From NCBI GenBank assembly GCA_023954035.1, contig JAMLIT010000025.1:1-53506 (forward strand): DNA of 53,506 bases, in the 5' to 3' direction. This document shows, piece by piece, positions 19,613-53,506 of the stretch. This DNA comes from Burkholderiaceae bacterium (GTDB lineage: Bacteria > Pseudomonadota > Gammaproteobacteria > Burkholderiales > Burkholderiaceae_C). The notes under the pieces were generated by a model. That model searched no databases. It was not told the DNA's origin and saw only the letters and a program-made list of their open reading frames with translations. Position numbers and translations under genes: made by a program. Within the stretch, counting starts at the first letter, position 1. The number at the start of each line of letters is the position of its first letter.

Positions 19613-19648
19613 ATAGCTGCAAGCGCAGACGCAATAAGCGCTAGAGGC
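19613..19648 (-). repeat. Dispersed palindromic repeat, copy A (intergenic)
   Basis: This is a 36-base core, read on the minus strand as GCCTCTAGCGCTTAT, seven variable bases, then a second half ending CAGCTAT. It lies between livF and livH. Flanking AT-rich bases extend it to about 60 bases (19605-19665). Confidence 0.85.
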
Positions 19649-19664
19649 CTAAAAGTATTGAAAT

Positions 19665-20417
19665 TCATAGCGCCAACCCCAGCAGCGAGCGCTGCAGTGC
19701 CTCGTCCTGCGCCAGCGCCGCCATGCGCCCGGCGTGCACGACAACGCCGTTGTCCATGACCGCCACGTTGTCGCCCAGGCGCTTGGCGAAGTGGATGTTC
19801 TGCTCGACCAGCAAAATCGTGACGCCGCGCTTTTTGAGCTGATCGAACGCGTCGATCATGTTGTTGATGATGGCGGGCGCCAGTCCCTTGCTGGGCTCGT
19901 CCACGATGAGCAGTTCGCGGGGCTCGACGATGGCGCGTGCCACCGCCAGCATTTGTTTCTGCCCGCCCGAGAGCTTGCCGGCTGGGTGGTTCCAGAACTT
20001 CTCCACCGCAGGAAACAGCCGGAAGATCCAGGCCAGACGCTCGGCGTCGATTTGGGCGGCGGTGCGCGCGCTGCGTGCGGCAAGCACCATGTTTTCCCTG
20101 ACCGTCAGGTCTCCAAAGATGCCCATGGTTTCGGGCACATAGGCGATGCCGAACCCGGCAATCTGCGGCGTGGCCAGGCGCGTGATGTCCTGCCCCGCGA
20201 ACTTCACCGTGCCCTGGGACGCGCGCCACAGTCCCATGACGGTGCGCAGCGTTGTCGTCTTGCCCGCGCCATTGCGCCCGAGCAGCATGGTGACTTCGCC
20301 ACGCGGCACCGTCAGGTCGACGCCGTGCAGGATGTGGTACGCCGCGATGTGCGTGTGCACACCGGAGAGTTCGAGCAGCGGCGCGGCACTGTCGGTGTGG
20401 GCAGTTGCAGTGGTCAT
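19665..20417 (-). CDS. livF: ABC transporter ATP-binding protein, LivF family
   Basis: This 250-residue ATPase has Walker A GRNGAGKTTTLRTVMG, signature KLSGGQKQMLAVARA, Walker B LLIVDEPSKGLAP and the H-loop region LLVEQN. It powers the LivHM importer as a heterodimer with LivG. Its start overlaps the livG stop by four bases. Its stop lies against a copy of the dispersed palindrome. Confidence 0.94.
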   Translation of the reverse strand: MTTATAHTDSAAPLLELSGVHTHIAAYHILHGVDLTVPRGEVTMLLGRNGAGKTTTLRTVMGLWRASQGTVKFAGQDITRLATPQIAGFGIAYVPETMGIFGDLTVRENMVLAARSARTAAQIDAERLAWIFRLFPAVEKFWNHPAGKLSGGQKQMLAVARAIVEPRELLIVDEPSKGLAPAIINNMIDAFDQLKKRGVTILLVEQNIHFAKRLGDNVAVMDNGVVVHAGRMAALAQDEALQRSLLGLAL

Positions 20418-21181: not shown

Positions 21182-21205
21182 GGCGCTGAAATTTAGGCAA
21201 AAAGT

Positions 21206-21241
21206 GGCTCTAGCGCTTGCTACGTAAGCGCTTGGAGCTAT
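21206..21241 (+). repeat. Dispersed palindromic repeat, copy B (intergenic)
   Basis: A 36-base core, GGCTCTAGCGCTTGC followed by six bases and then AGCGCTTGGAGCTAT, lies 25 bases upstream of livG. Its two halves pair around AGCGCTT/AAGCGCT. Confidence 0.85.
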
Positions 21242-21269
21242 GAAAAAAGTAACAATCGAGCGCTACGAC

Positions 21270-21470: not shown

Positions 21471-21474
21471 ATGC

Positions 21475-24315: not shown

Positions 24316-24365
24316 GGGCGGATGGTAACGCCGGGCCGCGGCACCAACGAATTACTATGACTTTG

Positions 24366-24401
24366 ATAGCTGCAATGGCCCACAGATAAAGCGCTGCAAC
24401 C
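24366..24401 (-). repeat. Dispersed palindromic repeat, copy C (intergenic)
   Basis: A 36-base core, read on the minus strand as GGTTGCAGCGCTTTAT and ending TTGCAGCTAT, lies in the gap between the sigma-54 activator and hslR. It is one of the less conserved copies in the left half. Confidence 0.75.
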
Positions 24402-24480
24402 TGATTTTTCTTGAAATCTGGCGCACACCACCGGCCTGCGAGGTCGGCGCCAGGCAGCAGAGCGCAGCAAAATACGCGCG

Positions 24481-26274: not shown

Positions 26275-26341
26275 CATGCCTGCATGGAGCATGCCACGCA
26301 CCAAGTGGTTCCCCACTGCGATCGCTATTGCAATCGTTTTT

Positions 26342-26377
26342 ATAGCTGCTCGCGCACCCTGTATAAGCGCTGGAGGC
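26342..26377 (-). repeat. Dispersed palindromic repeat, copy D (intergenic)
   Basis: A 36-base core, read on the minus strand as GCCTCCAGCGCTTAT followed by bases ending CGAGCAGCTAT, starts six bases after the cadA-type gene stop. It matches copies A and F at both ends without gaps. It lies in the leader of the small Cys-rich gene. Confidence 0.85.
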
Positions 26378-26382
26378 ATTTT

Positions 26383-28500
26383 TTACCGATTTTTTTGATC
26401 TGCACCTTGGCCTCTGCGCTGAACGGGTTCCGCGCGCAGCATGCGCAGGCCATTGGCCACCACCAGCAAGCTGGCGCCCATGTCGGCAAACACCGCCATC
26501 CACATCGTGGCCTGCCCGGCCAGCGCCAGCGCCAGGAACACCAGCTTGATGCCCAGCGCCAGCGCAATGTTCTGCACCAGCACCTGGTGCGTGCGGCGCG
26601 AGAGGCGCACCGTCTCAGCCACGCGGCGCAGGTCGTCGTTCATGATCACCACGTCGGCGGTTTCCATGGCCACATCGGTGCCGGCGGCGCCCATGGCAAA
26701 GCCGATGTCGGCCTGCGCCAAGGCGGGCGCGTCGTTGATGCCGTCGCCCGCCATGGCGGTCATGCCGTGCAGTTTTTGCAATGTGGCGATGGCGCCCTGC
26801 TTGTGCTCGGGCAGCAGATCGGCCTGCACCTCGTCGATGCCAGCGGCGCGGGCGGCGGCCTGCGCAGCGGCGCCATGGTCACCGGTGAGCAGGATGGGCG
26901 TGATGCCCAGAGCACGCAGTTCGGCCACTGCTTCTATGGCCTGCGGGCGCAAGGTGTCGGCCACGGCAAACAGCGCGCGCACGCCGCCGCGCTCGGCCAG
27001 AAAGGTCAGGCTGCGGCCCTGGGCCTCGTGCTCGGCGGAAGCGGCCGCTACCGTCTCGGTCCACAGGCCCTGCTCACGCATCCAGCGCCGGTTGCCCAAG
27101 GTCCAGCGCTCGCCGCCCACCCTGCCCTCGACGCCGCGCCCGGCCTGGGCAGTGAAATCGCTCAGCTCCGGCAAGGCGCCCTGCTGCGCACCCAGTCCGA
27201 GCGCAATTGCCTGCGACACAGGGTGGTCCGAGCGGCTCGCCAAGGCCAGCGCCACGTCGTGCGCCGCGTCGCAGCCCAAGGCGCTTTGCCCCACCAGCAC
27301 CGGCCGGCCAGTGGTGATGGTGCCGGTCTTGTCAAAGGCCACGGCACGAATACCGCGCGCCAACTCCAGCCAGGCCCCGCCCTTGATCAAAATGCCGCGT
27401 CGCGCCGCTACAGCCAGACCGCTGACCACGGTGACCGGCGTGGAGAGCACCAGCGCGCAGGGGCAGGCAATCACCAGCAAGACCAGCGCACGGTAAATGG
27501 CGTCCAGCCAGGCCCAGCCGAGCAGCAGCGGCGCGCCGACGGCCACCAGCACGGCCATGGCAAACACGGCCGGCGTATACACGGCGGCAAAGCGGTCCAC
27601 CAGCCGCTGCGTCGGCGCACGCGTGGCCTGCGCCTCCTCGACAGCGCGAATGATGCGGTCCAGCGTGGTGTGGCCCGAAGCAGCCGTCACGCGCATCTCC
27701 AGCTCGGCCTGGGCGTTGAGGGTGCCGGCAAACAGCGGATCACCCAGCGTTTTGTCCACCGCCAGGCTCTCCCCGGTGACGCTGGATTCGTCCACGGCGC
27801 TGGCGCCGCGCGTCACGCTGCCGTCCAGCGGCACCCGGCCACCAGGGCGAATGCGCAGCGTGTCACCCAGCGCCACGTCGGTGGCCGGCACGCTGCGCCA
27901 CTGACCATCCGCGCCGAGCCGGTCCGCCCGATCGGGGCTGAGCGCCAGCAAGGCGCCAATGGCATGGCGTGCCCGCCCCACCGCTCCCTGCTCGATGCGC
28001 TCGGCCAGCGCATACAGCGCCATCACCATCGCCGCCTCAGGCCACTGACCAATGGCAAAGGCGCCGGTCACCGCCACGGCCATGAGCGCACTGATGCCCA
28101 ATTGCCCACGCATCAGCGAGCGAACCCCGCTTTGGTAGACGCCCAGGCCCGCCAGCACAATGGCCACCGCCGCCAGCACCATGCCGCCCGCGTGCCAAGG
28201 CCAGGTGTCGGGCCCGAGCAGGTGCAGCAGCTCTGCTGCGGTAGCGGCAAGCAGGCCAGCCGCGATACGCGCCCAGCCGGGCAAGACACTGTGGTCGTGG
28301 CCGTCGCCGTGCTGCCGATCGGGGGCACGGCTCCCGGCATGCGCATGACCTGCGTGCGCCCCATTTAGGTGCTCGCCGTCGCCCGCGTGTTTGCCGCTGC
28401 AGCGGGCTTGATCCGCTGCAGCGGCGTCTTCTGCCACAGGGCAGCAGGAGAGGGAAATGCGCGGGCCGACAGGGCCTGTAGTGGTGGTCTCGGCTGACAT
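26383..28500 (-). CDS. cadA: Heavy-metal P1B-type ATPase (CadA/ZntA-like)
   Basis: This 705-residue protein has all P-type ATPase motifs: TGES, IACPCALVLSTPV (CPC metal site in the membrane), phosphorylation site FDKTGTITTG and hinge GDGINDAPAL. It exports divalent soft metals such as Cd, Zn or Pb from the cytoplasm. The N-terminus lacks a CxxC heavy-metal-associated domain. Instead it has a Cys/His-rich stretch (LSCCPVAED, then repeated HAGHAHAG and HGDGHDHS) before the first membrane helix. It is divergent from a MerR-type regulator with the shared operator between them. Confidence 0.92.
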   Translation of the reverse strand: MSAETTTTGPVGPRISLSCCPVAEDAAAADQARCSGKHAGDGEHLNGAHAGHAHAGSRAPDRQHGDGHDHSVLPGWARIAAGLLAATAAELLHLLGPDTWPWHAGGMVLAAVAIVLAGLGVYQSGVRSLMRGQLGISALMAVAVTGAFAIGQWPEAAMVMALYALAERIEQGAVGRARHAIGALLALSPDRADRLGADGQWRSVPATDVALGDTLRIRPGGRVPLDGSVTRGASAVDESSVTGESLAVDKTLGDPLFAGTLNAQAELEMRVTAASGHTTLDRIIRAVEEAQATRAPTQRLVDRFAAVYTPAVFAMAVLVAVGAPLLLGWAWLDAIYRALVLLVIACPCALVLSTPVTVVSGLAVAARRGILIKGGAWLELARGIRAVAFDKTGTITTGRPVLVGQSALGCDAAHDVALALASRSDHPVSQAIALGLGAQQGALPELSDFTAQAGRGVEGRVGGERWTLGNRRWMREQGLWTETVAAASAEHEAQGRSLTFLAERGGVRALFAVADTLRPQAIEAVAELRALGITPILLTGDHGAAAQAAARAAGIDEVQADLLPEHKQGAIATLQKLHGMTAMAGDGINDAPALAQADIGFAMGAAGTDVAMETADVVIMNDDLRRVAETVRLSRRTHQVLVQNIALALGIKLVFLALALAGQATMWMAVFADMGASLLVVANGLRMLRAEPVQRRGQGADQKNR

Positions 28501-29083: not shown

Positions 29084-29974
29084 ATGACTCCGCTCTCCCG
29101 CCGCCAGCTCATCGGCCTGGTGCTGCTCACCCTCATGTGGGGTCTGAACTGGCCGGTGATGAAACTCGCCCTGCGCGAAATCAGCCCGCTGCACTTTCGC
29201 GGACTGACCATGGGCCTGGGCGCAATGGTGCTTGCGGGCTACTTCGCTGCGCAGGGCATCCGCCTCTGGCCCAAGGGTCTTTCAGAATGGCGAACCGTGC
29301 TCGTCCTGGGCGGACCCAACATCCTGGGCTGGCATGCGCTGTCCATCATCGGAGTCGCGCACCTGCCGGCCGGGCGGGCGGCGATTCTGGGCTTCACGAT
29401 GCCGGTGTGGACGGTGCTGCTGGGCACCCTGCTGTACCGCGAGCAACTCACCGCGCGCCTGCTTCTGGCGGTCGTCGCCGTTCTCTGCGGCATTGGCCTG
29501 CTGCTGTGGAACGAATGGGCGCAACTGGCGGGCCAGCCCGTCGGCATCGCCTGGATGCAGGGAGCGGCCTTGTGCTGGGCGGTCGGCACGATCTGGATGC
29601 GCCGCGCGCAGCTGACACTGCCCGCAGAAGCGCTGGTCGTCTGGATGATGGTCCTGTCGGCGGCCGTCATCATGCTGCTCGCATGGGCGCTGGAGCCTTC
29701 GCAACACGGAAATCTGAGTGCGGCCATCTGGGTCAGTCTGGTCTGGAGCGTGCTGATCAACTACGGCGCCGCGCAGGTCGTCTGGTTTGCGCTGGCACGC
29801 GAGCTGCCGGCCACCACCAGTGCCATGAGCGTGATGGCCGTACCCCTCATCGGCACCTTGAGCGCCCCGCTCATCGTCGGCGAATGGCCGCATTGGCAGG
29901 ACCTGGCTGCCATGCTGTGCGTGGTGGTCGCCATCGGCGCCGTCCTTCTGCGGCGGCCGAAACCCGGGGCCTGA
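29084..29974 (+). CDS. EamA/DMT-family transporter
   Basis: This 296-residue inner-membrane protein has about ten hydrophobic segments in two EamA repeats (LLTLMWGLNWPVMKLALREI at the start; LIVGEWPHWQDLAAMLCVVV near the end). It probably exports a small metabolite. It begins 27 bases after cadR in the same direction and may share its transcript, but a link with metal resistance is not shown. It is not closely similar to the His-tailed DMT protein of the chromate operon. Confidence 0.88.
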   Translation: MTPLSRRQLIGLVLLTLMWGLNWPVMKLALREISPLHFRGLTMGLGAMVLAGYFAAQGIRLWPKGLSEWRTVLVLGGPNILGWHALSIIGVAHLPAGRAAILGFTMPVWTVLLGTLLYREQLTARLLLAVVAVLCGIGLLLWNEWAQLAGQPVGIAWMQGAALCWAVGTIWMRRAQLTLPAEALVVWMMVLSAAVIMLLAWALEPSQHGNLSAAIWVSLVWSVLINYGAAQVVWFALARELPATTSAMSVMAVPLIGTLSAPLIVGEWPHWQDLAAMLCVVVAIGAVLLRRPKPGA

Positions 29975-30143
29975 GCACCCAAAACAGCGCCGATGCGGCG
30001 GCTTTTGTGGTCTGCGCGATGCGCCCACTGCGCCGACCGGCGCGTGCGGCGCGCTCTTACGCGCCCGTGCGTCGCCTGGTCTTACCCTGGAAGGCCGCTG
30101 CAAATGTCCGCACGCTCCGTGCCCAGCGCCAGAAACAACCGCC

Positions 30144-30926
30144 ATGCCCAGCCCCGCCGAAACCGCCCCCAATGCGCCCGCGCCACGCAAAAGCGCCCGT
30201 CTGTACCGCATGGTGATGGACAAGCATGTGTGCCCGTACGGCCTCAAGGCCAAGTACCTCTTGGAGCGAGAAGGCTATGACGTCGACGACCACTGGCTGA
30301 CAACGCGCGCCGAAACCGACGCGTTCCAGGCCCAGCACCACGTCGACACGACGCCGCAAACCTTTATCGACGGCAAACGCATTGGTGGTTACGACGATAC
30401 CCGCAGATTCCTTGGCAAGGCAGTGAAAGACCCGGACGCGGTTACCTACGTGCCAGTGATCTCCATCTTTTCCGTGGCGGCGCTGATGGCGCTCGCAAGC
30501 CACTGGGCGCTTTCAGGCCACGCGTTGACGCTGCGCAGCCTGGAATGGTTTGTGGCGTTTTCCATGTGCCTTCTGGCCTTGCAAAAGCTGCGCGACGTTG
30601 ATGGCTTTGCCACCATGTTTCTGGGCTACGACCTGCTGGCAAGACGCTGGGTGCCCTATGCCTACCTCTACCCCTTTGGCGAACTGCTGGCCGGCGTGCT
30701 CATGATCGCGCATGGCTTGCCCTGGATAGCCGCGCCAGTGGCGCTGTGGCTCGGCTCGGTGGGCGCGGTGTCGGTCGTCTACGCGGTCTACGTTCAGAAA
30801 CGCGAACTCAAATGCGCCTGCGTGGGCGGCGGCTCCAACGTGCCGCTGGGCTTTGTCTCGCTCACCGAGAACGTGATGATGGTGGTCATGGGCCTCTGGA
30901 CGCTGGCCAGAAGCTTCGTCGGTTGA
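30144..30926 (+). CDS. Glutaredoxin-MauE fusion, membrane thiol protein
   Basis: This 260-residue protein has an N-terminal glutaredoxin domain (about 18-95) in which the usual CPYC is VCPYGLKAKYLLEREG, a one-cysteine CPYG active site. It keeps the TTPQTFIDGKRIGGYDD substrate-binding part. A membrane domain with four to five helices of MauE/DoxX type follows (about 100-260), ending with a second Cys pair, KCACVGGGS. It may move electrons or thiols across the inner membrane. No partner gene is adjacent. Confidence 0.85.
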   Translation: MPSPAETAPNAPAPRKSARLYRMVMDKHVCPYGLKAKYLLEREGYDVDDHWLTTRAETDAFQAQHHVDTTPQTFIDGKRIGGYDDTRRFLGKAVKDPDAVTYVPVISIFSVAALMALASHWALSGHALTLRSLEWFVAFSMCLLALQKLRDVDGFATMFLGYDLLARRWVPYAYLYPFGELLAGVLMIAHGLPWIAAPVALWLGSVGAVSVVYAVYVQKRELKCACVGGGSNVPLGFVSLTENVMMVVMGLWTLARSFVG

Positions 30927-30989
30927 GCGATCGAACGGAGGCCTTCTACTTCGGGCATCAGTTGCGAACTGTATCTATGAACCATGCCA

Positions 30990-33900
30990 TCAGTGATACA
31001 CCCTAGCACCCTCACCAAACCCGGCCATATAAATGTGCGCAAACACGGCGTTGGCCTTGACGTTGATCTCGTCAGCGTCGTAGGCGCCTGACGGCAGGTG
31101 CGCAAACAGGTGCTTGATGATTTCGGCCTTGACCTGGGCCTGCGCCGTGGCCTTCTCGCGCCAGTGATCGATCTGCAGCTTGCCGCTGGCTAGGTTGTTC
31201 AACAACTCCTTCGCCACCTTCTTCATGGCGTCCCGGTCACCCTTGGTCAGGCTGTCCTTCTGCAACAGATCGAAAACGGCCAATTGGTCTTCGCTCTCCA
31301 GCCCCTCTCGCAGGTAACGCTTTTCTTCTTCGTTGAGGTTGTCGTTGAAGGTGAACAGGTCGTCCATCACCTTCTGGATTTCGGCGGCATCCTTGTCCTT
31401 GTTGTATTCCTGAACGATCTCCTGATAGCGCTCGTACAGGTCGACCCGGGTCGGGTTGCGCGCCACCATCATCGCCAGCCGCTCTTCGATTTTCTCCTTC
31501 AGGTTCAGGGTGACCACGTTCTTGAACGGCGATTTTTCAAACTCGGCCCGCAGTCGTGAAAAGTCGATGTTGGAGAGGTCGTACCGCGCATGGCCCTGGT
31601 TGGCCACGGCAGGCGCTGGTTTGCCGTCCGTCGTCAGTGCGGTGTCGACCACCTCGTACAAGTCCTGCAGCAGCGCGCTGACGTCGGGCGTTTCGCGTGC
31701 ATCCTGCAGCTTGTTGTAAATCGCATTGACGGCGCTTTCTTCCGCATCGAAGTCGAACAGTCCCGAGTGCGGGAACAGGCCCCGGTGGCGGGCCTGCACA
31801 TCCTCCACGATCACCTGATAGGTCTTGCGGCGCTCATCGCTCTCGCAGAGCAGATTTACGGCGACCAGGATCTGCTGCTGCTTGTCAAAGCCCTTGGCGG
31901 CAATCAGCCCATCCAGATCGAAGCCGAGATTCACCAGAAAGTCTCTGGCGGCTTTCAGGCTCTGGGCGTACTCGGCCAGCGCTTCCGAGTCGTCGCGCAC
32001 GGTGTTTTGCTCGCCTTCACCCTTGCCGGTGCCGGCGCGGTCACCCTGGGCAAACGTGGCCAGCGCCTTGCGCAGACTTTTGAGCATGCCGTTGTAGTCA
32101 ATGATCAGGCCGTGCTTCTTGCCCCCGCCCACACGGTTGACGCGGGCGATGGCCTGCATCAACGTGTGGCCCTGCATCGGCTTGTCGAGGTACAGCGTGG
32201 CCAGGCATTTCACGTCGAAGCCCGTCAGCCACATGGCGCAAACAATGGCGATGCGGAATGGGTTCTCGGCCTGCTTGAACTCCTTTTCCAAGTTGCGCTT
32301 GACCATCTTCTCGCGGTGTGGCGTGATGTCCAGCGGCTCGTCGCGAAAATTGCGCCACTTGGCGAATTCGGCCACCTCGCCCTGCTCCTGCGAAACCACC
32401 ACGCAGCATTCGGTGGCCTTCATCCATTCAACCTGTTCGCGGCGCTGTTGCAGAAGCTTCGGCAGGGCTTTGCGCTTGGCGACGAACAGCGCCTCCTCAG
32501 CGGCCACGCTCGCCTCCAACTGGGCGGCCTTCTCCTGCCATTTGGCTTTGACCAGATCGTGCATCTTCACGCAAGTGATCTTGTCCAAGCAGACCATCAT
32601 GGCCTTGCCGCCGCCGGTGTCGACTACCCTCCATCGCTGGTGGAAGTGATCGACGAAATCCTGAGCCACCTTTTCCAGGCGCGTGGGCGAAGTCAGGATG
32701 GGGTAGTCGCGCGCCAGCTCTCGGTAGAGCTTTTCCTCCTTCTCGTCGGTCCACGGATCGTCAAGCGTGGCTGCCTGCCGCGCAGCTTCGATGTGGTCCG
32801 CTATCCGTTCGCTGACCTTGGGGTCGACAATCTTCAGTTTTTCACCCCGGTTCTCGTAGAACAAGGGCAAGGTCGCGCCATCGGCCACCGCACGCTGGAA
32901 GTCGTAGATCGACACGTAGTCGCCAAACACTTCGCGCGTCAGCTGCTTCTCACCGGCATCGATCAGGGGCGTGCCGGTGAAGCCCAGGAACTTGGCTCGC
33001 GGTAGCCCCTTGCGCATGTTCAGCGCCAGGCGGCCGTACTGGGTGCGGTGCGCCTCGTCGCTGATGACAATGATGTCGTCACGCTCGGAATAGGCCTCCT
33101 TCACTAGCTCACGGTACTTCTGGATCAGGCCGAACACGTAGCGGCGGTTCTGGTCCCGCAGCATCTTACGTAGGGTTTCGCCGCTGGAGGCCTGGTCGGT
33201 CTTGCTGTTGGCGCGACCGGCATTGGTATAGGTGGAGGCGATCTGGTCGTCCAGCTCCGTGCGATCGGTGATCACCACAAAGGTGTAGCTGCCAGAGATC
33301 CGGCGGTGGATCTTCTCGGTCAGAAACAGCATCGAATACGACTTGCCCGAACCTTGGGTATGCCAGAACACGCCCAGTTGTCCAGCCTTCACCTCGGCCT
33401 TGATAGTCGGATCGACAGACATGAGGCGCTCGATCACCCGGTTGACGCCCAGATACTGGTGGTTGCGCGCCACGATCTTGTGCGTGCCCCCTTCGCTGGC
33501 ATCGAACAGCACGAAGTTTTCGACAATGTCCAGCAAACGGGCCTTGTCCAGCATGCCCTTGAGCAAGATGGGCAGCAGGGGTTGGTCCTTGCCAGGCTCC
33601 GGATCGTCCTCGTCCAACCGCTTCCAGCGATAGAAGTGCTCGCGGGTGCTGGTCAGCGAGCCGTACTGCGCATCGTGGCCGTTGGAGATCACCACCAGCG
33701 CATTCCAGTGGAACAGGTGCGCAATGGTGTCCAGGTAGTCGCTGTAGTTCTTTTTGTAGGCGCTGTCGATGTGCACTTCGAAGCGTTTGAGCTCGATGAA
33801 CACCAGCGGTAGGCCATTGACGTAGCCGATCACGTCTGGGCGACGCAACCACAGGCGCCCGCGCACCCACAGCTCGCGCACCGCCTGGTAGCGGTTGTTG

Positions 33901-34286
33901 TGAGGACGGTCGAAGTCGATCAGGCGCAGGCGCTTGTCCACCAAGCGGCCGGCTGCATTCCGATACTTCACCGGTACGCCATCGCGCAGCAGCTTGTACT
34001 TCTCTTCGTTGAGGGCGATCAGCGTCTTGGTGATGTCGTCCTGCAGCACCTGCGCCAGGGCCTGGCTGTAGGCCTCTGGCGGCAAGCCCGGGTTCAGGAG
34101 CTTCAGCGCGGCCAGCACCTCGCGGCAAAGCACCACCTCGGTGTCGTTGCTGCGGCCCAGAAGGCTGTCGGGCCCGAAATCCTCGTCGTCTTGGGCGAAC
34201 ACGGTTTGCCAGCCGAGCTGCTTTTCCAGCAGTTCGGCCGTCGGCGCCTGGATCAGCAGGTCTTCGGAATAGTCCTTCTTGGCCAT
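30990..34286 (-). CDS. hsdR: Type I restriction enzyme, HsdR subunit
   Basis: This 1098-residue protein has an N-terminal nuclease region (GLPLVFIELKRFEVHIDSAY contains the E-x-K of the PD-ExK site) and then a SF2 translocase with motif I TQGSGKSYSMLFLTEK and motif II ISDEAHRTQYG. Later motifs are FLGFTGTPLI and LDKPMQGHTLMQAIARVNRV. It cuts unmethylated DNA after ATP-driven translocation. It is the last gene of the operon; a separate promoter-like sequence precedes it. An in-frame GTG at 34307 is an alternative start. Confidence 0.95.
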   Translation of the reverse strand: MAKKDYSEDLLIQAPTAELLEKQLGWQTVFAQDDEDFGPDSLLGRSNDTEVVLCREVLAALKLLNPGLPPEAYSQALAQVLQDDITKTLIALNEEKYKLLRDGVPVKYRNAAGRLVDKRLRLIDFDRPHNNRYQAVRELWVRGRLWLRRPDVIGYVNGLPLVFIELKRFEVHIDSAYKKNYSDYLDTIAHLFHWNALVVISNGHDAQYGSLTSTREHFYRWKRLDEDDPEPGKDQPLLPILLKGMLDKARLLDIVENFVLFDASEGGTHKIVARNHQYLGVNRVIERLMSVDPTIKAEVKAGQLGVFWHTQGSGKSYSMLFLTEKIHRRISGSYTFVVITDRTELDDQIASTYTNAGRANSKTDQASSGETLRKMLRDQNRRYVFGLIQKYRELVKEAYSERDDIIVISDEAHRTQYGRLALNMRKGLPRAKFLGFTGTPLIDAGEKQLTREVFGDYVSIYDFQRAVADGATLPLFYENRGEKLKIVDPKVSERIADHIEAARQAATLDDPWTDEKEEKLYRELARDYPILTSPTRLEKVAQDFVDHFHQRWRVVDTGGGKAMMVCLDKITCVKMHDLVKAKWQEKAAQLEASVAAEEALFVAKRKALPKLLQQRREQVEWMKATECCVVVSQEQGEVAEFAKWRNFRDEPLDITPHREKMVKRNLEKEFKQAENPFRIAIVCAMWLTGFDVKCLATLYLDKPMQGHTLMQAIARVNRVGGGKKHGLIIDYNGMLKSLRKALATFAQGDRAGTGKGEGEQNTVRDDSEALAEYAQSLKAARDFLVNLGFDLDGLIAAKGFDKQQQILVAVNLLCESDERRKTYQVIVEDVQARHRGLFPHSGLFDFDAEESAVNAIYNKLQDARETPDVSALLQDLYEVVDTALTTDGKPAPAVANQGHARYDLSNIDFSRLRAEFEKSPFKNVVTLNLKEKIEERLAMMVARNPTRVDLYERYQEIVQEYNKDKDAAEIQKVMDDLFTFNDNLNEEEKRYLREGLESEDQLAVFDLLQKDSLTKGDRDAMKKVAKELLNNLASGKLQIDHWREKATAQAQVKAEIIKHLFAHLPSGAYDADEINVKANAVFAHIYMAGFGEGARVYH

Positions 34287-34315
34287 CTTCTTGTTTCCCT
34301 CCAGCACCCAGGCCC

Positions 34316-34345
34316 GCCATAGGTGGCGCCCGGCCGTCTTGTCAA
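34316..34345 (-). promoter_or_regulatory. Possible internal promoter for hsdR
   Basis: On the minus strand TTGACA (34345-34340) and TATGGC (34321-34316) are 18 bases apart, about 30 bases before the hsdR start, in the 173-base gap after the DUF3800 gene. The -35 is perfect and the -10 is poor. It would allow HsdR to be made separately from the methylase. Confidence 0.5.
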
Positions 34346-38891: not shown

Positions 38892-39101
38892 GGCATTGGT
38901 GCTCGGCGTATGGCCTCAAAGTCGTTTTAAATCGTCATCAGTCTACCAAGCGGTGGAAGTAGCGCCCCCATCACCCCTGCCGGAAGCTGGTGAAGCGGAA
39001 AGGTGAGTTCTTGCCCAAATTGGGGCAATGGGATACCGGATCGAAATAGCGATGGATGTCCAAAGTCAGCCTACGTCACCCAACAACAGCCAATTGGTCG
39101 C

Positions 39102-39123
39102 GGCATACCAAATGGCATACCAA
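39102..39123. repeat. Pair of 10-bp direct repeats near tRNA-Ser
   Basis: GGCATACCAA occurs at 39102-39111 and 39114-39123, a 12-bp period, in a 285-base stretch (38892-39176) with no gene. The spacing is like the repeat pair beside the island integrase at 12688-12707. It may be the scar of an integrative element that brought the RM operon to this tRNA. Confidence 0.45.
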
Positions 39124-39140
39124 TCAGAGCAAAAAACAAA

Positions 39141-40659: not shown

Positions 40660-41625
40660 TCAGGGTGCCAAAACGGCCGGATTGTACCAATCAAGCCGGT
40701 CGTTGCTGCGCCGCACAAAGCCCAGGCCGACCTTGATATCGATGCGGTGCGAGCGGGTGGTGCAAACCGCAATCTGGCGCTGCAGCTCGGCCAATTGCGC
40801 CGCGCTGGGCGTGCAGGCGTGCGCACTCACCAGCCAGTGGCGCAGCACGTTGGCCTGGCGCGCGCTGCCCAGTTGCTGCAATGCGCAAATCTGCGGTGGC
40901 GTCCCCACCAGGGCCAGGTCCTGCACCGCCACTTCGGCAAGCAACTGCTGCGCCTGCGCCGCGTGCGCGCTGCTGCGGGAGAAAGTGTCGCGAAAAGCGG
41001 GAAAGCAGGCGTCCAGCGCCGGCAGCAACTGGGCGCGGATGCGATTGCGGGTAAAGCGCAGGTCGGCGTTGCTCGGGTCCTGCACCCAGGGTTCGCCCCG
41101 GGCGCACAGCCATTGCCGCACCGCCGCGCCGGGCACGCGCAGCAAAGGACGGTGCCACTGCAGTCCTGCGCGCTGCCATTGCGCCGGCATGGCCGCCAGC
41201 CCCGGCAGGCCGGCCCCGCGCGAGAGCGCAAGCAACAGGGTTTCTACCTGGTCGTCTGCGTGGTGCGCCAATGCTACGGAAAGAATAGCTGTCTGGGCAA
41301 TACCACTATGCGCTAAGGCGTCAAAAGCCTTGTACCTCGCACTGCGGGCAGCGTCTTCCGGGCTCTGGCCGGGCGCAGCGCCGGCGCTCACCCGCGCCAC
41401 CTGCAGCGGCACCCCCAGGCGCGCGCACAAGGCCTGGCAGTGCGCGGCGAAGTCGTCCGCCGCCGGCTGCAGGCCGTGGTGCACGTGCAGCGCAGCCACC
41501 TGTCCCGGCCAGCGCTCGGCGCAGGCCAGGAGCAAAGCGGTGGAATCGGCGCCCCCGCTCAAGCCCACGGCCAGCGGCAGGGCGGGGGTGAACTGTGCCA
41601 GCGCGTGATCGAAGGACTGCGTCAT
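40660..41625 (-). CDS. tilS: tRNA(Ile)-lysidine synthase with an in-frame palindromic element
   Basis: This 321-residue protein has the PP-loop motif LSGGADSTALLLA and the HHADDQVETLLLALSRGAGL region of TilS, which makes lysidine at C34 of tRNA-Ile(CAT). It is shorter than the E. coli enzyme and lacks part of the C-terminal domain. Residues just before the HHADDQ motif (KAFDALAHSGIAQTAILS) are encoded by a copy of the dispersed palindrome. Normal length and frame are kept, so the protein is probably functional. It lies between accA and lysC. Confidence 0.93.
   Translation of the reverse strand: MTQSFDHALAQFTPALPLAVGLSGGADSTALLLACAERWPGQVAALHVHHGLQPAADDFAAHCQALCARLGVPLQVARVSAGAAPGQSPEDAARSARYKAFDALAHSGIAQTAILSVALAHHADDQVETLLLALSRGAGLPGLAAMPAQWQRAGLQWHRPLLRVPGAAVRQWLCARGEPWVQDPSNADLRFTRNRIRAQLLPALDACFPAFRDTFSRSSAHAAQAQQLLAEVAVQDLALVGTPPQICALQQLGSARQANVLRHWLVSAHACTPSAAQLAELQRQIAVCTTRSHRIDIKVGLGFVRRSNDRLDWYNPAVLAP
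41285..41320 (-). repeat. Dispersed palindromic repeat, copy E (inside tilS)
   Basis: A 36-base core, read on the minus strand as CGCCTTAGCGCATAGTGG and ending CCAGACAGCTAT, has the same length and ends as copies A-D. It lies wholly within the tilS reading frame. It is more diverged than the intergenic copies, as expected if the coding sequence is under selection. Confidence 0.7.
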
Positions 41626-42682: not shown

Positions 42683-43345
42683 TCAGTAAGCGACGGGCAG
42701 CGGGTCCAGCGAGCGCCAAATATACCAAGTGGCCACGCTGCACCAGGGCTTCCAGGCCTGAGCCACTTCGCGCGCATCGCTGCGGCTGACCGGATCGCCC
42801 GAAAAGTAGTTCTTGCTGATGCCGTTGAGCAGGCCGACGTCGTCCAGCGGCAGCACGTTGGGGCGCATCAGGTGAAAGATGAGAAACATCTCGGCAGTCC
42901 AGCGGCCAATGCCGCGAATCGCCACCAGCTCGGCAATGATGGCCTCGTCGTCCATCGCCTGCCAGGCATCGACGTGCAGCTTGTTGCCGTCAAAATGCAG
43001 CGCCAGGTCCACCAAATATTCGACTTTGCGCACCGACAGGCCAGCGGCGCGCATGTCATCGATTTTCAGGCGCAGCACTTCGGGCGGCGTCAAGGCGGGC
43101 GCGAGCAAAGCGAAGCGGTCCCAGACGGTTTGCGCCGCTTTGACCGAAATCTGCTGGCCGACGATGCTGCGCGCCAGCGTGACGAAGGCGTCGCCCCGCG
43201 TTTGCAAGGTGGCTTCACCAAACTGGGGGATCAGGCGCTTCATCACCCGGTCTTTTTTCATCAGGTGGCTTCGCGCCTGGGGCCAGTAGCCGGGAACGGT
43301 CAGATCGGCGGCGCCCGTTAATGCTATTACTTTCGAAGCATTCAA
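42683..43345 (-). CDS. DNA-3-methyladenine glycosylase (AlkA-like)
   Basis: This protein of about 220 residues has a helix-hairpin-helix glycosylase domain: [20 protein letters not shown], then [20 protein letters not shown] with the catalytic Asp further on in [10 protein letters not shown]. It removes alkylated bases. No ATG is present at the expected N-terminus. A TTG at 43345 inside a palindromic repeat is the best start, giving [21 protein letters not shown] before the conserved [15 protein letters not shown] later ATG (LMKKDRV) would shorten it by about 24 residues. It is 46 bases after cysS. Confidence 0.88.
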
Positions 43346-43370
43346 CGCTTGTCCCCATTGCGCTGGATGG
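43335..43370 (-). repeat. Dispersed palindromic repeat, copy G (at the glycosylase start)
   Basis: A 36-base core, read on the minus strand as CCATCCAGCGCAATGGGGAC, AAGCGTTGAA and TGCTTC, with a T-rich flank (CAAAATG), lies across the probable start of the glycosylase gene. Only the last six bases deviate strongly from the AGCTAT end of the family. Confidence 0.6.
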
Positions 43371-43391
43371 CATTTTGACGCATTTTTTTGC

Positions 43392-44768
43392 TCACGTGGC
43401 TGCTTCCCAGGTGGTGCCGGCGGCGCTGTCCTTGAGGACGATGCCCTGGGCCAGCAAGGCGGCGCGGATGCGGTCGGCCTCGGCGAAATCGCGCGCCGCC
43501 TTGGCCGCGGCACGCTGGGCAATGTGCGCTTCGATGTCCGCCGCAGCCAGCGTGCTGCCCGCGCGCAGGAACGCCGCTGGCTCTTCCTGCAGCAGCCCCA
43601 GGCAGCCGCCCAGCGCCTTGAGCAGGCCGGCGGCCTGCGGTGAACGGCTGCGATTGACCTCACCAGCCAGGTCGAACAACACAGCCACGGCTTCCGGCGT
43701 ACCGAAGTCCTCGTCCATGGCGGCGCGAAAGCGCGCGGCGTAGGGTTCGGACCAGTCGATGGCAACGTCCTGCGCTGGCACCACACTCAGTGCAGTGTAG
43801 AGGCGCTTGAGCGCCTGGTGGGCGTCGTCAAGGTGCGCGTCGCTGTAGTTGAGTGCACTGCGGTAGTGCGCCCGCACCATGAAGAAACGCAGGGTTTCGG
43901 GTTGGTACTCACGCAGTACGTCGCGGATCGTGAAGAAGTTGCCCAGCGACTTGCTCATCTTCTCGTTGTCCACGCGCACAAAGCCGTTGTGCATCCAGAA
44001 ATGCGCCAAGGGCTTGCCATGGGCGCCTTCGCTCTGCGCAATCTCGTTCTCGTGGTGCGGAAACTGCAGGTCGGCGCCGCCGCCGTGGATGTCGAAGGTC
44101 TCGCCCAGCGTGGCGCAGCTCATGGCCGAGCACTCGATGTGCCAGCCGGGGCGTCCGGCGCCAAAGGCGCTGTCCCATTTCGCTTCGGCGGGCTCGTCGG
44201 CCTTGGCGGCCTTCCAGAGGACAAAGTCGAGCGGGTCGTGCTTGCCATCGTCCACCGCCACGCGCTCGCCGGCGCGCAGCTCGTCGAGTGACTTGCCCGA
44301 GAGCTTGCCGTAGCCGGGAAACTTGCGCACCGCGTAGTTCACATCGCCGCTGCCGGCGCGGTAGGCCAGGCCCTTGCCTTCGAGCGTGGCAATCAGCGAG
44401 AGCATCTGCGGCACGTACTCGGTAGCGCGCGGCTCGACATCGGGCGGCTCGATGCCGAGCCTGGCGATGTCCTGGTGCATGGCGCCAACCATCTCGCCGG
44501 TGAGTTCGCGGATGCCGATGCCGCGCTCGACTGCGCGCCGGATGATCTTGTCGTCGATGTCGGTGATGTTGCGCACGTACGTGACGCGGTAGCCGCTGGC
44601 ACGCAGCCAGCGCTGGACGACGTCGAAGGCCATCATCATGCGGGCGTGGCCGATGTGGCACAGGTCATAAATGGTCATGCCGCAGACGTACATGCGCACA
44701 TGGCCGGGTTCGATCGGAGAGAACTCTTGCAGGGAACGCGCGAGCGTGTTGTAGATGCGCAGACTCAT
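43392..44768 (-). CDS. cysS: Cysteinyl-tRNA synthetase
   Basis: This 458-residue class I synthetase has the first zinc ligand in [20 protein letters not shown] with its HIGH motif, and [17 protein letters not shown] with KMSKS. The zinc site includes WHIECSAMS and [11 protein letters not shown]. It charges tRNA-Cys. It is the upstream gene of the accA-side cluster and divergent from the TPR gene. Confidence 0.96.
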
Positions 44769-46202: not shown

Positions 46203-47594
46203 GTGCACCGACTGCGCCGCCGTCCCGCATTGATCGCGCCCGCGCCGCGCCAAGCGCGCGCCTGGCCGGGCACAGGCGCTGCCTGGATCACCGCGGCCTG
46301 GTTCGCGCTGGGCGCCCTCACCGCGCTGCCCGGCTGGGCGCGCGAGCCGAGCCGCAATGCGCCGAAGAAGGCGATTCATTCCCAAACAGCGACCAAGAGC
46401 GCACGTGCCAGCGCGCCAAAACGCCAACGCAGCGCTCCCGCCGCAGTCGCTGCTGCCGCATCCCGGCCCGCCGGCGCAGGCCAGAGCGACCAGGCCGAAT
46501 CCAGGCTGATCCGCGTGTACCGGCTGACGGCGCAGGGCCGCGCCGACGAAGCCCTGTCCCAAGCCCAGGCGTTGGCGCGCGACTTTCCGAACTTCCAGCT
46601 GGCCCAGTTGGCGCTGGGAGACTTGCTGGCCGCGCGCGTGCGGCCGCTGGCGCAGTTTGGCGACGCGGCGGCGCCGCTGCCCGAAGCCGACGTTGCGCTG
46701 GCCGAGCTGCGCAAAGAGTCGCACCAGCGCGTGGCGGCCGAGCGACTGCGCCCGGCGGCAGGCGCCATTCCGGCGGCCTTCGTCGAGATTTCCGATCGCA
46801 CGCGCCATGCCATCGCGGTCGACGCGTCCCGCTCGCGCCTTTATCTGTTTGAAAACGGCAAGCAGGGCCTGCGCCTGGTGGCGGACTACTACGCCTCGGT
46901 CGGCAAGCTCGGGATCGAAAAGGAATTCGAGGGCGATCAGCGCACTCCCTTGGGCGTGTACTACATCACCAGCCGGCTCGACGCCAAGCAACTGGCCGAC
47001 CTCTATGGCTCGGGCGCGCTGCCGCTGAACTACCCCAACGCCCTCGACCTGCGCCGCGGCAAGACCGGCAGCGGCATCTGGTTGCATGGCACGCCCAGCG
47101 CCCAGTTCGCGCGCGCGCCCCAGGCCACCGACGGCTGCGTGGCGATTGCCAACCCGGATCTGGAGCGCATTCTGAACACGGTCGAGCCGCGCAGCACGCC
47201 GGTAGTCATTGCGAGCCAGTTGCGCTGGGTGACGCCCCAGGGCGTGGCGGGAGAGCGCCAGGCGTTCAACGAGGTGCTGGAGGCCTGGAGCAAGGCCAAG
47301 TCCGAGGGCGACCTGCAGCGCCTGCTGGGCTTCTACACCTACGATTTCCAGGGCATGCGCAGCCAGTCCATCACGCAATGGCGCGTCACGCTGCAGGAAG
47401 ACCTGGAGGCGCTGCGCGGGCGCTCGCTGGTGCTCAAGGACAAGTCCGCGCTGCACTGGAGAGACAGCAGCGAAACCATGGTGGTGACCTTTGCCGAAGT
47501 ACCGCAAGGTGAGCGCAGCGGCCCGGTCAAGCGCCAGTACTGGCGCCGCCAGGGCCAGCGCTGGCAAATATTCTTTGAAGGAGTGATTGGATGA
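46203..47594 (+). CDS. L,D-transpeptidase (YkuD family) with NTF2-like C-terminus
   Basis: This 463-residue protein starts at a GTG and has an N-terminal membrane segment (TAAWFALGALTALPGWA), a short TPR-like helix pair and a YkuD catalytic domain (about 195-340). The catalytic motif is SGIWLHGTPSAQF with ATDGCVAIANPDLE; the cysteine is in DGCV. It cross-links or modifies peptidoglycan. The C-terminus (about 350-463; VLEAWSKAKSEGDLQRLLGF) resembles the NTF2-like domain of the preceding gene. Its stop overlaps the next start by four bases. Confidence 0.9.
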   Translation: MHRLRRRPALIAPAPRQARAWPGTGAAWITAAWFALGALTALPGWAREPSRNAPKKAIHSQTATKSARASAPKRQRSAPAAVAAAASRPAGAGQSDQAESRLIRVYRLTAQGRADEALSQAQALARDFPNFQLAQLALGDLLAARVRPLAQFGDAAAPLPEADVALAELRKESHQRVAAERLRPAAGAIPAAFVEISDRTRHAIAVDASRSRLYLFENGKQGLRLVADYYASVGKLGIEKEFEGDQRTPLGVYYITSRLDAKQLADLYGSGALPLNYPNALDLRRGKTGSGIWLHGTPSAQFARAPQATDGCVAIANPDLERILNTVEPRSTPVVIASQLRWVTPQGVAGERQAFNEVLEAWSKAKSEGDLQRLLGFYTYDFQGMRSQSITQWRVTLQEDLEALRGRSLVLKDKSALHWRDSSETMVVTFAEVPQGERSGPVKRQYWRRQGQRWQIFFEGVIG

Positions 47595-48175
47595 TTTCTA
47601 GAAGAAAATGGGCTCTCGCGCTGAATGCGATTGCGCTCACAGCTATATTTTCAGTAGCGCCTCTGGCCGGCGCCGAGGAAGCCCCCAAAGTCAAGCTGGC
47701 CACGTCCATGGGCGACATCGTGGTGCAGCTCAACCCCGAGAAAGCGCCCAAAACAGTGGCCAACTTCCTGCAGTACGTGCGCGAGAAGCACTACGACGGC
47801 ACGATCTTTCACCGCGTGATCGACGGCTTCATGATCCAGGGCGGGGGCTTTACGCCCGACATGGTGCAAAAACCCATGCGTGCACCCATTCCGCTCGAAG
47901 CCGGGAACGGCCTGAAGAACGACAAATACACCATCGCCATGGCGCGCACCGGCGTGCCCGATTCGGCCACCGCGCAGTTTTTCATCAACGTGAAGGACAA
48001 CGCCATGCTCAACGCCCCCCAGCCCGACGGCCACGGCTACGCGGTGTTTGGCAAGGTGGTGGAAGGCACCGACGTGGTGGACAAGATCCGGGCTGTAGCC
48101 ACCAGCAACAAGGGACCGTACCAAAACGTGCCCAAAGACCCCGTCACCATCAACTCGGCCACCGTGGTCGAATAA
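47591..48175 (+). CDS. ppiA: Periplasmic cyclophilin-type peptidyl-prolyl isomerase
   Basis: This 194-residue protein has a signal peptide and a full cyclophilin domain: [18 protein letters not shown], then [28 protein letters not shown] and [15 protein letters not shown]. It speeds proline isomerisation during periplasmic folding. The signal peptide [20 protein letters not shown] is largely encoded by a dispersed palindrome (47611-47646), and a mature start near AGAEEAPK remains normal. It overlaps the L,D-transpeptidase stop and is followed by a cytoplasmic paralogue. Confidence 0.93.
47611..47646 (+). repeat. Dispersed palindromic repeat, copy H (encodes a signal peptide)
   Basis: A 36-base core, GGCTCTCGCGCTGAATGC and ending GCTCACAGCTAT, is preceded by AGAAGAAAAT, which nearly matches the flank of copy F (AGAAGAAATT). 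Over 55 aligned bases H and F share 33 identities without gaps, concentrated at both ends. It is read in frame as the basic and hydrophobic parts of the ppiA signal peptide. Confidence 0.75.
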
Positions 48176-51297: not shown

Positions 51298-51332
51298 GGG
51301 AGCCAGTGCAGTGCTTCACTGCACTGGCTCCC
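51298..51332 (-). terminator. Strong hairpin directly after aceE
   Basis: GGGAGCCAGTGCAGTG (51298-51313) pairs perfectly over 16 bases with CACTGCACTGGCTCCC (51317-51332), loop CTT. It ends one base before the aceE stop codon. No T-run follows on the minus strand (CCCCTTCG), so it may stabilise the 3' end or be a weak terminator. Confidence 0.75.
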
Positions 51333-51333
51333 G

Positions 51334-53506
51334 TCAGGCACCGCCATTCTGCAGCGCAAACCGGGCCGCCTTCGCCACCGATTGCGCGTCCACGCCGAAA
51401 AACTCACGCAGTGCCGCCCGCGTGTCGCTGCGTCCAAAGCCGTCGGTGCCCAGCGTGAGGTAACGCCGTCCGGCGGGTACCAAGGCGCGCACAGTCTCGG
51501 GCACGGCGCGCACGTAGTCGGTGGCGGCGATCACCGGGCCACGGGTTTCTGCAAGCTGCTGCGTCACCCAGGGCACGCCGGGCGCGGCCTCGCCCGCCAG
51601 CGCGCGCTGTTCACAGGCCTGGCCGTCGCGCGCCAGCTCGCTCCAGCTCGTCACGCTCAGCACCGTCACCTCCAAACCCTCGGCCGTCAACAGCTCGGCG
51701 GCCTTGACGACTTCAGTCAGGATGGCGCCCGAACCCAGCAGGGTGACATTTTTAGAAGAAATTGGCCTCTCGCGCTTATCTGACAAGCGTCTCCAGCTAT
51801 CGAAAATGTAGCAACCACGCAACACACCCTCGGCGGCGCCTTCTGGAAGATCAGGCTGGGCGTAGTTCTCGTTCATCAGCGTGACGTAATAGAAGACGTC
51901 GCGCTGCTCGGTCACCATCTCGCGCATGCCGGCATCGACGATGACGGCCATTTCGCCCGCATAGGCCGGGTCGTAGGCCTTGCAGTTGGGGATGGTCGCT
52001 GCCACCAGGTGGCTGGTACCGTCCTGGTGCTGCAGGCCCTCGCCGCCCAATGTGGTGCGGCCTGAAGTCGCGCCCAGCAAAAAGCCGCGCGCGCGCTGGT
52101 CGGCGGCGGCCCAGATGGCGTCCCCCACGCGCTGAAAGCCAAACATGGAGTAGTAGATGTAGAACGGCAGCATGGCCAGGCCGTGCACGCTGTAGCTGGT
52201 GGCGGCAGCCGTCCAGCTGGCGATGGCGCCGGCTTCGCTGATGCCCTCCTCCAAAATCTGCCCATCCAGGGCCTCGCGGTAGGCCAGCACCGAGCCGATG
52301 TCCTCGGGCGCATAGCGCTGGCCCACACTGCTGTAGATACCGATCTGCTTGAACAGGTTGGCCATGCCAAAGGTGCGCGCCTCGTCGGCCACGATGGGCA
52401 CGATGCGCGGCCCCAGCATGGCGTCTTTCAGCAGGCCCGTGAGCATGCGCACAAAGGCCATGGTGGTGCTCATCTCTTTGCCATCGGCCTGCAGGGCGAA
52501 CTGGGCGTAGCTGGTGATGGGCGGCACGGGCAGTGCCTCGCATGCGGTTTCGCGGCGCGGCAGGTAGCCGCCGAGCTGCTGGCGGTGGCGGCGCAGGTAC
52601 TGCATCTCTGCGCTGTCCTCTGCGGGCTTGTAAAAAGCCAGGCCCGTGGCCTGCTCGTCAGTGAGTGGCAGGTTGAAGCGGTTGCGAAATTCGATCAGGT
52701 CGGCGCCATCGAGCTTCTTCTGGCTGTGCGTGGTCATCTTGCCCTGGCCGGAGGTGCCCATGCCATAGCCCTTCTTGGTGTGGGCGAGGATGACGGTGGG
52801 CTGGCCCTTGTGCGCGCTGGCTGCGGCGTAGGCGGCGTGGATTTTCACCAGGTCGTGGCCACCGCGCTTGAGCCGGTCGATCTGCTCGTCCGTCATGCCC
52901 TGGGCCAGCGCGGCCAGTTCCGGGTTCTGGCCGAAGAAGTTGTCGCGGTTGAAGCGCCCGTCTTTCGCAGCAAAGGTTTGCATCTGGCCGTCGACCGTGC
53001 CCTCCAAAGCGCGCGCCAGGGCGCCTGTGAGGTCGCGGGCAAACAGGCCGTCCCAGTCGCTGCCCCAGACGAGCTTGATGACGTTCCAGCCGGCGCCGGC
53101 AAACAAACGCTCCAGCTCGTCGATGATGCGGCCGTTGCCGCGCACCGGGCCGTCGAGCCGCTGCAGGTTGCAGTTGACCACCCAGACGAGGTTGTCCAGC
53201 CCTTCGCGCGAAGCCAGGGTGAGCGCGCTGGTGCTCTCGGGCTCGTCCATCTCGCCGTCGCCAAACACGCCCCACACTTTTCGGCCTGCGCAGTCGAGCA
53301 GGTTGCGGTGCGTGAGGTAGCGCATGAAGCGCGCGTGGTAGATGCTGCTGATGGGGCCGATGCCCATCGAGCCCGTGGGGAACTGCCAGAAATCCGGCAT
53401 GAGCCACGGATGCGGGTAGCTCGACAGGCCGTGCGCCCCTGCAGCGGGCGCACTCAACTCCTGGCGGTAGTACATCAAGTCCTGCTCGGAGAGCCCCCCT
53501 TCGAGA
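51334..53506 (-). CDS. aceE: Pyruvate dehydrogenase E1 component, 5' end outside window
   Basis: At least 723 codons of the homodimeric E1 are present; the frame is open to the window end (LEGGLSEQDLMYYRQE), so the start is missing. It contains the thiamin-diphosphate motif VFGDGEMDEPES, GPISSIYHARFMRYL, AAATSYSVHGLAMLPFYIYY and TDGFGRSDTRAALREFFGVD. It decarboxylates pyruvate for acetyl-CoA synthesis. Residues IFDSWRRLSDKRERPISSKN, just before the conserved VTLLGSGAIL, come from a palindromic repeat. aceF does not follow downstream. Confidence 0.96.
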   Translation of the reverse strand, partial: LEGGLSEQDLMYYRQELSAPAAGAHGLSSYPHPWLMPDFWQFPTGSMGIGPISSIYHARFMRYLTHRNLLDCAGRKVWGVFGDGEMDEPESTSALTLASREGLDNLVWVVNCNLQRLDGPVRGNGRIIDELERLFAGAGWNVIKLVWGSDWDGLFARDLTGALARALEGTVDGQMQTFAAKDGRFNRDNFFGQNPELAALAQGMTDEQIDRLKRGGHDLVKIHAAYAAASAHKGQPTVILAHTKKGYGMGTSGQGKMTTHSQKKLDGADLIEFRNRFNLPLTDEQATGLAFYKPAEDSAEMQYLRRHRQQLGGYLPRRETACEALPVPPITSYAQFALQADGKEMSTTMAFVRMLTGLLKDAMLGPRIVPIVADEARTFGMANLFKQIGIYSSVGQRYAPEDIGSVLAYREALDGQILEEGISEAGAIASWTAAATSYSVHGLAMLPFYIYYSMFGFQRVGDAIWAAADQRARGFLLGATSGRTTLGGEGLQHQDGTSHLVAATIPNCKAYDPAYAGEMAVIVDAGMREMVTEQRDVFYYVTLMNENYAQPDLPEGAAEGVLRGCYIFDSWRRLSDKRERPISSKNVTLLGSGAILTEVVKAAELLTAEGLEVTVLSVTSWSELARDGQACEQRALAGEAAPGVPWVTQQLAETRGPVIAATDYVRAVPETVRALVPAGRRYLTLGTDGFGRSDTRAALREFFGVDAQSVAKAARFALQNGGA
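51765..51800 (+). repeat. Dispersed palindromic repeat, copy F (inside aceE)
   Basis: A 36-base core, GCCTCTCGCGCTTATCTG, followed by bases ending CTCCAGCTAT, lies in the antisense orientation within the aceE reading frame. Matching flanks (AGAAGAAATT before, CGAAAAT after) extend it to about 55 bases. It adds roughly nine residues compared with the E. coli protein at this place. Confidence 0.85.

Follow-up and report, generated by a model that had tools for sequence, protein, structure and literature searches.

Eight copies of a 69-bp motif

The window analyzed here, a whole stretch of 53,506 nucleotides from a Burkholderiaceae bacterium (GenBank assembly GCA_023954035.1, contig JAMLIT010000025.1), carries eight copies of a dispersed motif, lying both between genes and within genes such as tilS, ppiA, and aceE. 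An earlier note, written from the letters alone, had recognized them as eight gap-free palindromic cores of 36 bp. All eight lie where it placed them and the cores are real, but the conserved unit is longer. Each core sits in the middle of a ~69-bp motif that almost always aligns across copies without gaps, with the consensus AAAtTtnaaGtnAAAttgGcCTCTAGCGCTTAtncnntAAGCGCtagcAGCTATnaAatnnatAGcaa (columns 13-81 of a profile built from 169 copies in the same genome). The symmetry holds, imperfectly, for the centre and does not extend to the remainder of the motif. The centre is bipartite, with GCGC, and has A/T tracts on both flanks; the G+C content of the motif is 40% (172 copies).

Five of the eight cores read on the minus strand. 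The first copy (19598-19666, minus; 78 bits with the 169-copy profile, and 70.8 bits with a covariance model of which it is a member) lies just downstream of an ABC-transporter ATPase gene identified with Pfam (19665-20417), and the same place is occupied in the related genomes G012 and G007. The second (21188-21256, plus; 76 and 73.6 bits, also a model member) is intergenic and likewise present in both. The third (24351-24419, minus; 60 and 57.6 bits, model member) is intergenic as well, between divergent genes according to a simple gene caller; its place scores 73 bits in G012 and 94 bits in G007, and no copy was found there in G003. The fourth (26327-26395, minus; 74 bits, model member) is identical in G012 at 69 of 69 bases. 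The earlier note had called all four intergenic, but this last copy (starting at 26322 in the covariance model) shares 13 bp with a P-type ATPase gene (Pfam) at its 3' end, the rest lying downstream.

The other four had been read as coding, which is correct for tilS, ppiA, and aceE. The copy inside tilS is weak (41270-41338, minus; 21 bits), and its place scores 21 bits in G012, 41 in G007, 32 in G004, 18 in G003, 15 in G014, and below 10 in G013, with length unchanged throughout. The copy attributed to an AlkA-like gene (43320-43388, minus; 42 bits) instead fills the junction between cysS, whose stop lies at 43392, and that HhH-GPD (Pfam) gene, whose start is uncertain; it is present in G012, G007, G004, G003, G013, and G014 (22-53 bits). 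At 47593-47661 (plus; 54 bits) a copy encodes most of the PpiA signal peptide. Among 17 same-genus ppiA genes examined, own included and a split match in G015 excluded, 14 have the motif in the signal peptide, at 34-63 bits; the three genes without it are exactly those of the motif-free genomes, where the signal peptides are of similar length. The eighth copy (51747-51815, plus; 75 bits) lies inside aceE, antisense to the gene and mostly between the parts encoding the middle and C-terminal domains. It is present in eight of nine close genes, own included (24-75 bits), and absent from that of G016. The aceE gene itself (51334-53506) is cut by the contig end; its type (≥87% identity) occurs in 9 of the 18 same-genus genomes searched, own included, and a second AceE in the own genome (G000:C43) is ~56% identical to it.

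The window's own genome (G000), that of an Acidovorax-like bacterium, comprises 3.33 Mb in 76 contigs. A pattern search of it yielded 14 copies, one inside the window, and these align without gaps across 86 columns with three further window copies (n = 17). The covariance model built from the 17 thus includes four window copies (19593, 21176, 24346, and 26322), which match it by construction. It finds at least 150 matches in G000, and 10 of the 150 scored are not 86 bases long. For the window copies outside the model, the matches in aceE (E = 1.8e-8) and ppiA (E = 1.1e-5) are clear, while those in tilS (E = 0.15) and at 43315-43400 (E = 2.8) are within model noise. Scores from the 169-copy profile are not independent, since up to seven of the eight window copies (all but tilS) fed it. 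The earlier note had allowed that such cores might be found equally often by chance; this is not so, as 597 kb of reversed sequence gave no profile match of 10 bits or more.

How common is the motif outside the window? We sampled 20 stretches of 20 kb by coordinate, regardless of the motif, and found 52 copies in these 400 kb, or 1 per 7.7 kb, which corresponds to ~430 per genome; the same 400 kb reversed hold none. We placed the 52 sampled and 8 window copies relative to genes with a simple codon-based gene caller, which misses the ppiA start. The caller puts 27 of the 60 copies wholly inside genes and 4 across a 3' end; the remaining 29 are intergenic or overlap a gene by less than 12 bp. 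With ppiA corrected, 28 of the 60 lie inside genes. The earlier note was therefore right to see one repeat family with genuine in-frame coding copies in a beta-proteobacterium, and such copies are far commoner than eight cores suggested. The sampled stretches contribute 24 host proteins, and all 20 of those scanned with Pfam match known families, including IspC, AnmK, LpxK, SelO, RsgA, and poly-A/CCA polymerase. One host, a CbiB/CobD-like gene (L233:13715-14734), has two copies (45 and 71 bits), both coding hydrophobic stretches. Coding copies occupy five of the six frames, most commonly sense frame 1 (12 of 28). Mean scores are lower in copies called coding (44 bits, n = 27) than in the others (61 bits, n = 33, ppiA counted here).

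Copies outside genes concentrate at convergent regions: among regions of at least 60 bp, there are 12 copies in 25 convergent, 18 in 145 tandem, and 3 in 40 divergent ones. This placement, together with a short stem in the centre, would suit an RNA-level element, either a terminator or a structured untranslated region. RNA structure as the reason for the motif is nevertheless rejected, and we regard such an element as a very remote prospect: none of the four predicted pairs shows a compensatory change among the 17 sequences, no Rfam family reaches its gathering threshold at the window copy places, and the coding copies run in both orientations (15 sense, 13 antisense).

Origin of the coding copies

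A search of the own and related genomes, of the kind proposed in the earlier note, gives matches in 23 of the 26 genomes of the genus, own included (75 to at least 150 per genome). The boundary between close species is sharp, as no copy was found in three congeners, G002, G005, and G008; the profile matched nowhere in 340 kb of G002, nor in 95 kb of loci drawn from all three. Counts by genome are lower bounds, with at most 150 candidates scored per genus genome, 17 per family genome, and 22 per order genome.

The three motif-free congeners provide a test of how the motif came to lie in genes. For the 17 coding copies of at least 40 bits, we sought the orthologous segments in G002, G005, and G008, and 14 of the 17 could be compared, with the urate-oxidase-like protein, YhhN, and LpxK left out; LpxK matches of equal length were listed in the search of the motif-free genomes, outside the 14-segment comparison. 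An inserted motif should leave an orthologue short of 23 residues. None of the 14 host segments has a motif-free orthologue lacking them, and the largest gap in the motif part is 4 residues. Nine segments are gap-free there: IspC, PrmC-like, ThiL, CCA polymerase, RmlD, GlmU-like, AnmK, SelO, and CinA (in the part aligned), a count that ignores a 3-residue gap in a distant CCA paralogue. GlmU-like, PrmC-like, and ThiL are presumed names. One CbiB copy has no gap across the part aligned, and four segments (RarA, RsgA, CobU, and the other CbiB copy) differ by 1-4 residues. The alignments cover 13 of the 24 motif residues in CinA and 19 in one CbiB alignment. Sequence identity often drops in the motif part, as in ThiL, where 4-5 of 24 residues match versus 57-61% over the whole segment.

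Solved homologues lead in the same direction. IspC and AnmK align to theirs through the motif without a gap. At the motif, AceE is 9 residues longer than chain 1l8a and TilS 4-6 residues longer than chains 3a2k and 1ni5, not 23, and PpiA signal peptides are of similar length with and without the motif. The coding copies tested are not insertions because their motif-free orthologues are equal in length or off by only a few residues, and the alignments indicate that they are written in place by point changes, at the DNA level. The Rickettsia-type insertion into reading frames suggested by the earlier note, which had pointed to alignment of the host proteins with orthologues as the way to check it, thus does not stand for these copies.

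It is tempting to think of a mobile palindromic element, whether of the type of the Rickettsia palindromic elements (RPE), the miniature inverted-repeat transposable elements (MITE), or the repetitive extragenic palindromes (REP), that inserts, also in frame, and is then inherited in place. A strong consensus, high copy number, and copies persisting at orthologous places would all fit, and the extra residues of AceE and TilS could be counted in its favour. Against it stand the 23-residue gap seen in 0 of 14 host segments, the gap-free IspC and AnmK alignments, tilS-place scores that vary between species at constant length, and consensus third positions at conserved residues (see below). We consider this explanation most improbable overall; for the coding copies the alignments largely refute it, and insertion of a palindromic element into genes is rejected for those tested. 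Comparison with the individual families agrees. The motif resembles RPE as a palindromic repeat in frame inside unrelated genes, but RPE are ~150-bp insertions (PMC10969869; here and below, cited papers are drawn on in extract), and no motif-length insertion is seen in the host proteins. The same lack of a motif-length insertion at coding copies sets it apart from MITE, and the extragenic location of REP with a RAYT transposase does not match 28 of 60 copies inside genes. The Beta-proteobacterial repeat element (BRE) is likewise dispersed in Comamonadaceae and relatives, with some copies in coding sequence, but is described as ~90 bp, GC-rich (63.7-78.9%; mean 69.0% in Bordetella), and sometimes tandem (PMC3110155), in contrast to ~69 bp and 40% G+C here. 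Identity with BRE is unlikely by G+C content and length, a separation made by description rather than by alignment of the sequences.

If the motif is written in place, does the pressure act on the DNA or on the protein? Third codon positions are informative. In motif-bearing codons their G+C content averages 0.42 versus 0.81 in the host genes, and it is lower in all 27 copies called coding. We then took well-conserved motif columns in the 14 segments, each compared with its best motif-free orthologue. At residues identical between the two, the third base matches the consensus at 71 of 118 positions in G000 versus 28 of 118 in the motif-free relative. Third positions favour the consensus even where the residue is unchanged; therefore the pull toward the consensus acts on the DNA, and protein sequence changes in its wake. 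Judged from these sequences, protein change is a by-product of a DNA-level motif and not diversification by an inserted peptide, contrary to the protein-diversifying repeat envisaged in the earlier note. Chance resemblance of the coding copies is rejected by this third-position bias, the reversed-sequence controls, and the copy-free G002.

In-place origin and DNA-level pressure would suit any selected site, and the main rival is a binding site for an intracellular DNA-binding protein, for example in nucleoid organization, replication, or segregation, with sites arising by substitution and kept by selection. The bipartite GCGC centre with its A/T tracts could be the footprint of a large protein-DNA complex. 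However, the motif holds 76 bits of information over 69 bp, far in excess of the ~14 that suffice to specify 430 sites, three congeners have no copy that could be found, and there is neither orientation bias nor even spacing on the G004 chromosome, where 74 of the best 150 copies lie on the plus and 76 on the minus strand. In a small sample, island-like stretches also lack the motif. We therefore judge a binding site of this kind unlikely, if worth keeping in mind.

Ectopic gene conversion, in which copies overwrite partly similar sequences at unchanged length, would provide templated spread without uptake and account for an over-specified consensus together with equal length. It would require many sufficiently similar starting sites, and by eye, what the copies in the 17-copy alignment have in common is the consensus positions rather than longer blocks. 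This too is improbable, and clearly more so than a protein-binding site.

A candidate uptake sequence in Comamonadaceae

Known uptake sequences, the "self" tags by which some bacteria select free DNA for uptake, share many of these properties. The uptake signal sequences (USS) of Haemophilus "are not insertions", as Redfield and colleagues showed by the gap test also applied here, and their consensus is "anomalously strong" (PMC1626085); they are said to change by point mutation, driven by biased uptake and recombination (PMC7811141). Like USS, the motif has many copies, a very strong consensus, a core with A/T-rich flanks, unbiased orientation, coding as well as intergenic locations, and an origin by substitution (PMC1626085; PMC7811141). 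It is unlike USS in its imperfectly palindromic centre, in the A/T tracts on both sides, and in its host, a member of the Burkholderiales. With the DNA uptake sequences (DUS) of Neisseriaceae and their receptor ComP, it shares a beta-proteobacterial host that encodes a pilin of the ComP_DUS family; it differs in that the core of DUS is 10 bp and in that ComP_DUS-family pilins here also occur in motif-free genomes.

By analogy with these systems, the repeats are probably genomic uptake sequences of a natural-transformation system in a Comamonadaceae lineage. It also seems, on balance, credible that they form a third family of self-DNA uptake sequences, of separate origin, in Acidovorax and Comamonadaceae related to it. 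At ~69 bp these would be longer than any named in the sources; close relatives would have lost or never acquired them, and ~200 proteins would be partly rewritten in place (an estimate from 28 of 60 copies applied to ~430). We infer recognition by the uptake machinery, a receptor, and a molecular drive, which would work as follows. Fragments carrying the motif would be favoured by a DNA receptor of the type IV pilus; once taken up, they would recombine into the genome, such that mutations toward the consensus would be copied preferentially. Substitutions would thereby build the motif up, both between genes and where a gene tolerates change, as in signal peptides and linkers.

The distribution of the motif is wider than the genus. 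With strict filters, at least 69 of the 250 genomes sampled from the family have it, spread over at least 44 of 141 genera, as do at least 4 of 200 genomes sampled across the order, own included in each case. Among the matches listed, the strict core is found in Acidovorax (including A. temperans DSM 7270 and A. facilis DSM 649), Simplicispira, Giesbergeria, Paenacidovorax, Extensimonas, and Comamonas, and also in metagenome-assembled genomes (MAGs) labelled Rhodoferax and Ottowia and in less precisely named MAGs. The 80 strict-core loci listed contain 141 profile matches, with none in the control, and 18 copies from G110, a member of another genus, have a nearly identical consensus. The exact core pattern occurs in 15 of 2.9 million viral contigs. 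In the literature searched (subscription papers lay outside its scope), we found no description of the motif as an uptake sequence or a repeat.

Natural transformation is reported for three species of the wider group, A. temperans, A. facilis, and Verminephrobacter eiseniae; in V. eiseniae it depends on type IV pili and is sequence selective (PMC4212676). The extract of that paper names no uptake sequence of their own for Verminephrobacter or Acidovorax. Both transformable Acidovorax species carry the motif: among six loci from the two, five have 1-4 profile matches, and the sixth, with its core at the locus edge, has none. The motif is a direct candidate for an uptake sequence of this group.

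The own genome encodes ComEC, found in 23 of the 26 genus genomes, and a ComP_DUS-family (Pfam) pilin, found in 20 of the 26. In the own genome the pilin gene directly follows a large gene, presumably pilY1.

Several observations weigh against an uptake sequence. The pilin does not discriminate motif-bearing genomes, because it is far commoner across the family than the motif (235 of 250 genomes versus at least 69 of 250). Pilins of the ComP_DUS family occur in all three motif-free congeners too, together with ComEC in two; neither gene separates motif-bearing from motif-free genomes. The motif diverges about as fast as its flanks in two genomes, each compared over five orthologous pairs. Copies are spaced no more evenly along the G004 chromosome than at random (coefficient of variation 0.98), with pairs less than 3 kb apart fewer than random (8 versus 16). 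At ~69 bp the motif is much longer than USS, with 31 bp and a 9-bp core (PMC7811141), or DUS, with 10 bp, and at 1 per 7.7 kb it is sparser than USS at ~1 per kb (PMC1626085). Finally, A. temperans and A. facilis were not transformed by DNA of another Acidovorax species (PMC4212676), though both are motif bearing; this failure could be explained by divergence at the recombination step.

If the motif does serve in uptake, it would represent a third and much longer family of uptake sequences, in Burkholderiales, beside those that the sources, as extracted, describe in Neisseriaceae and Pasteurellaceae. Set beside the close relatives in which no copy turned up, it would show whether self-recognition in uptake has arisen more than once, how the length of a motif bears on its receptor, and in what way proteins are reshaped by a DNA tag. 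The protein parts so rewritten would include the signal peptide of PpiA and the stretch of AceE between domains.

Stretches without the motif

USS and DUS are under-represented in newly acquired segments (PMC7811141), and the absence of copies from foreign-looking stretches here, in a small sample, would, if general, be a further likeness. Two island-like parts of the window have no copy. Positions 1-13100 adjoin a tmRNA, do not match the G012 stretches compared, and, by Pfam content, the tmRNA 3' end (1-52), and an ALIL pseudoknot, make up a probable genomic island. Its genes include chrB and chrA for chromate resistance, a large serine resolvase, a phage-type integrase, and an IS3-type integrase gene with the ALIL pseudoknot (10032-10148). 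Positions 29971-39138, likewise not collinear with the G012 stretches compared, contain type I restriction-modification genes identified with Pfam, hsdR (30990-34307) and hsdM (36474-38672). None of the eight window copies falls in the ~22 kb not collinear with G012, an outcome with a chance probability of 0.0135 for boundaries drawn post hoc.

Among the 20 sampled stretches, the only two without a copy (L218 and L219) contain helicase and methylase genes, a TOTE-type system, McrBC, and a resolvase; gene content was inspected in these two only, because they are copy-less. L219 (own genome C12:30001-50000) has a TOTE-type primase-helicase, McrBC, a D5-type primase, and a serine recombinase, and is a defence-rich, probably mobile region. 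Altogether, these few and partly post hoc stretches suggest that the motif is missing from foreign-looking DNA.

In the motif-free congener G002, a search of 340 kb for another dispersed motif brought up nothing beyond a CRISPR-like array and, by eye, codon-like words. The array (L415, ~17-4917) has 31 repeats with the core CTGCCGCATAGGCAG, presumably type I-F-like.

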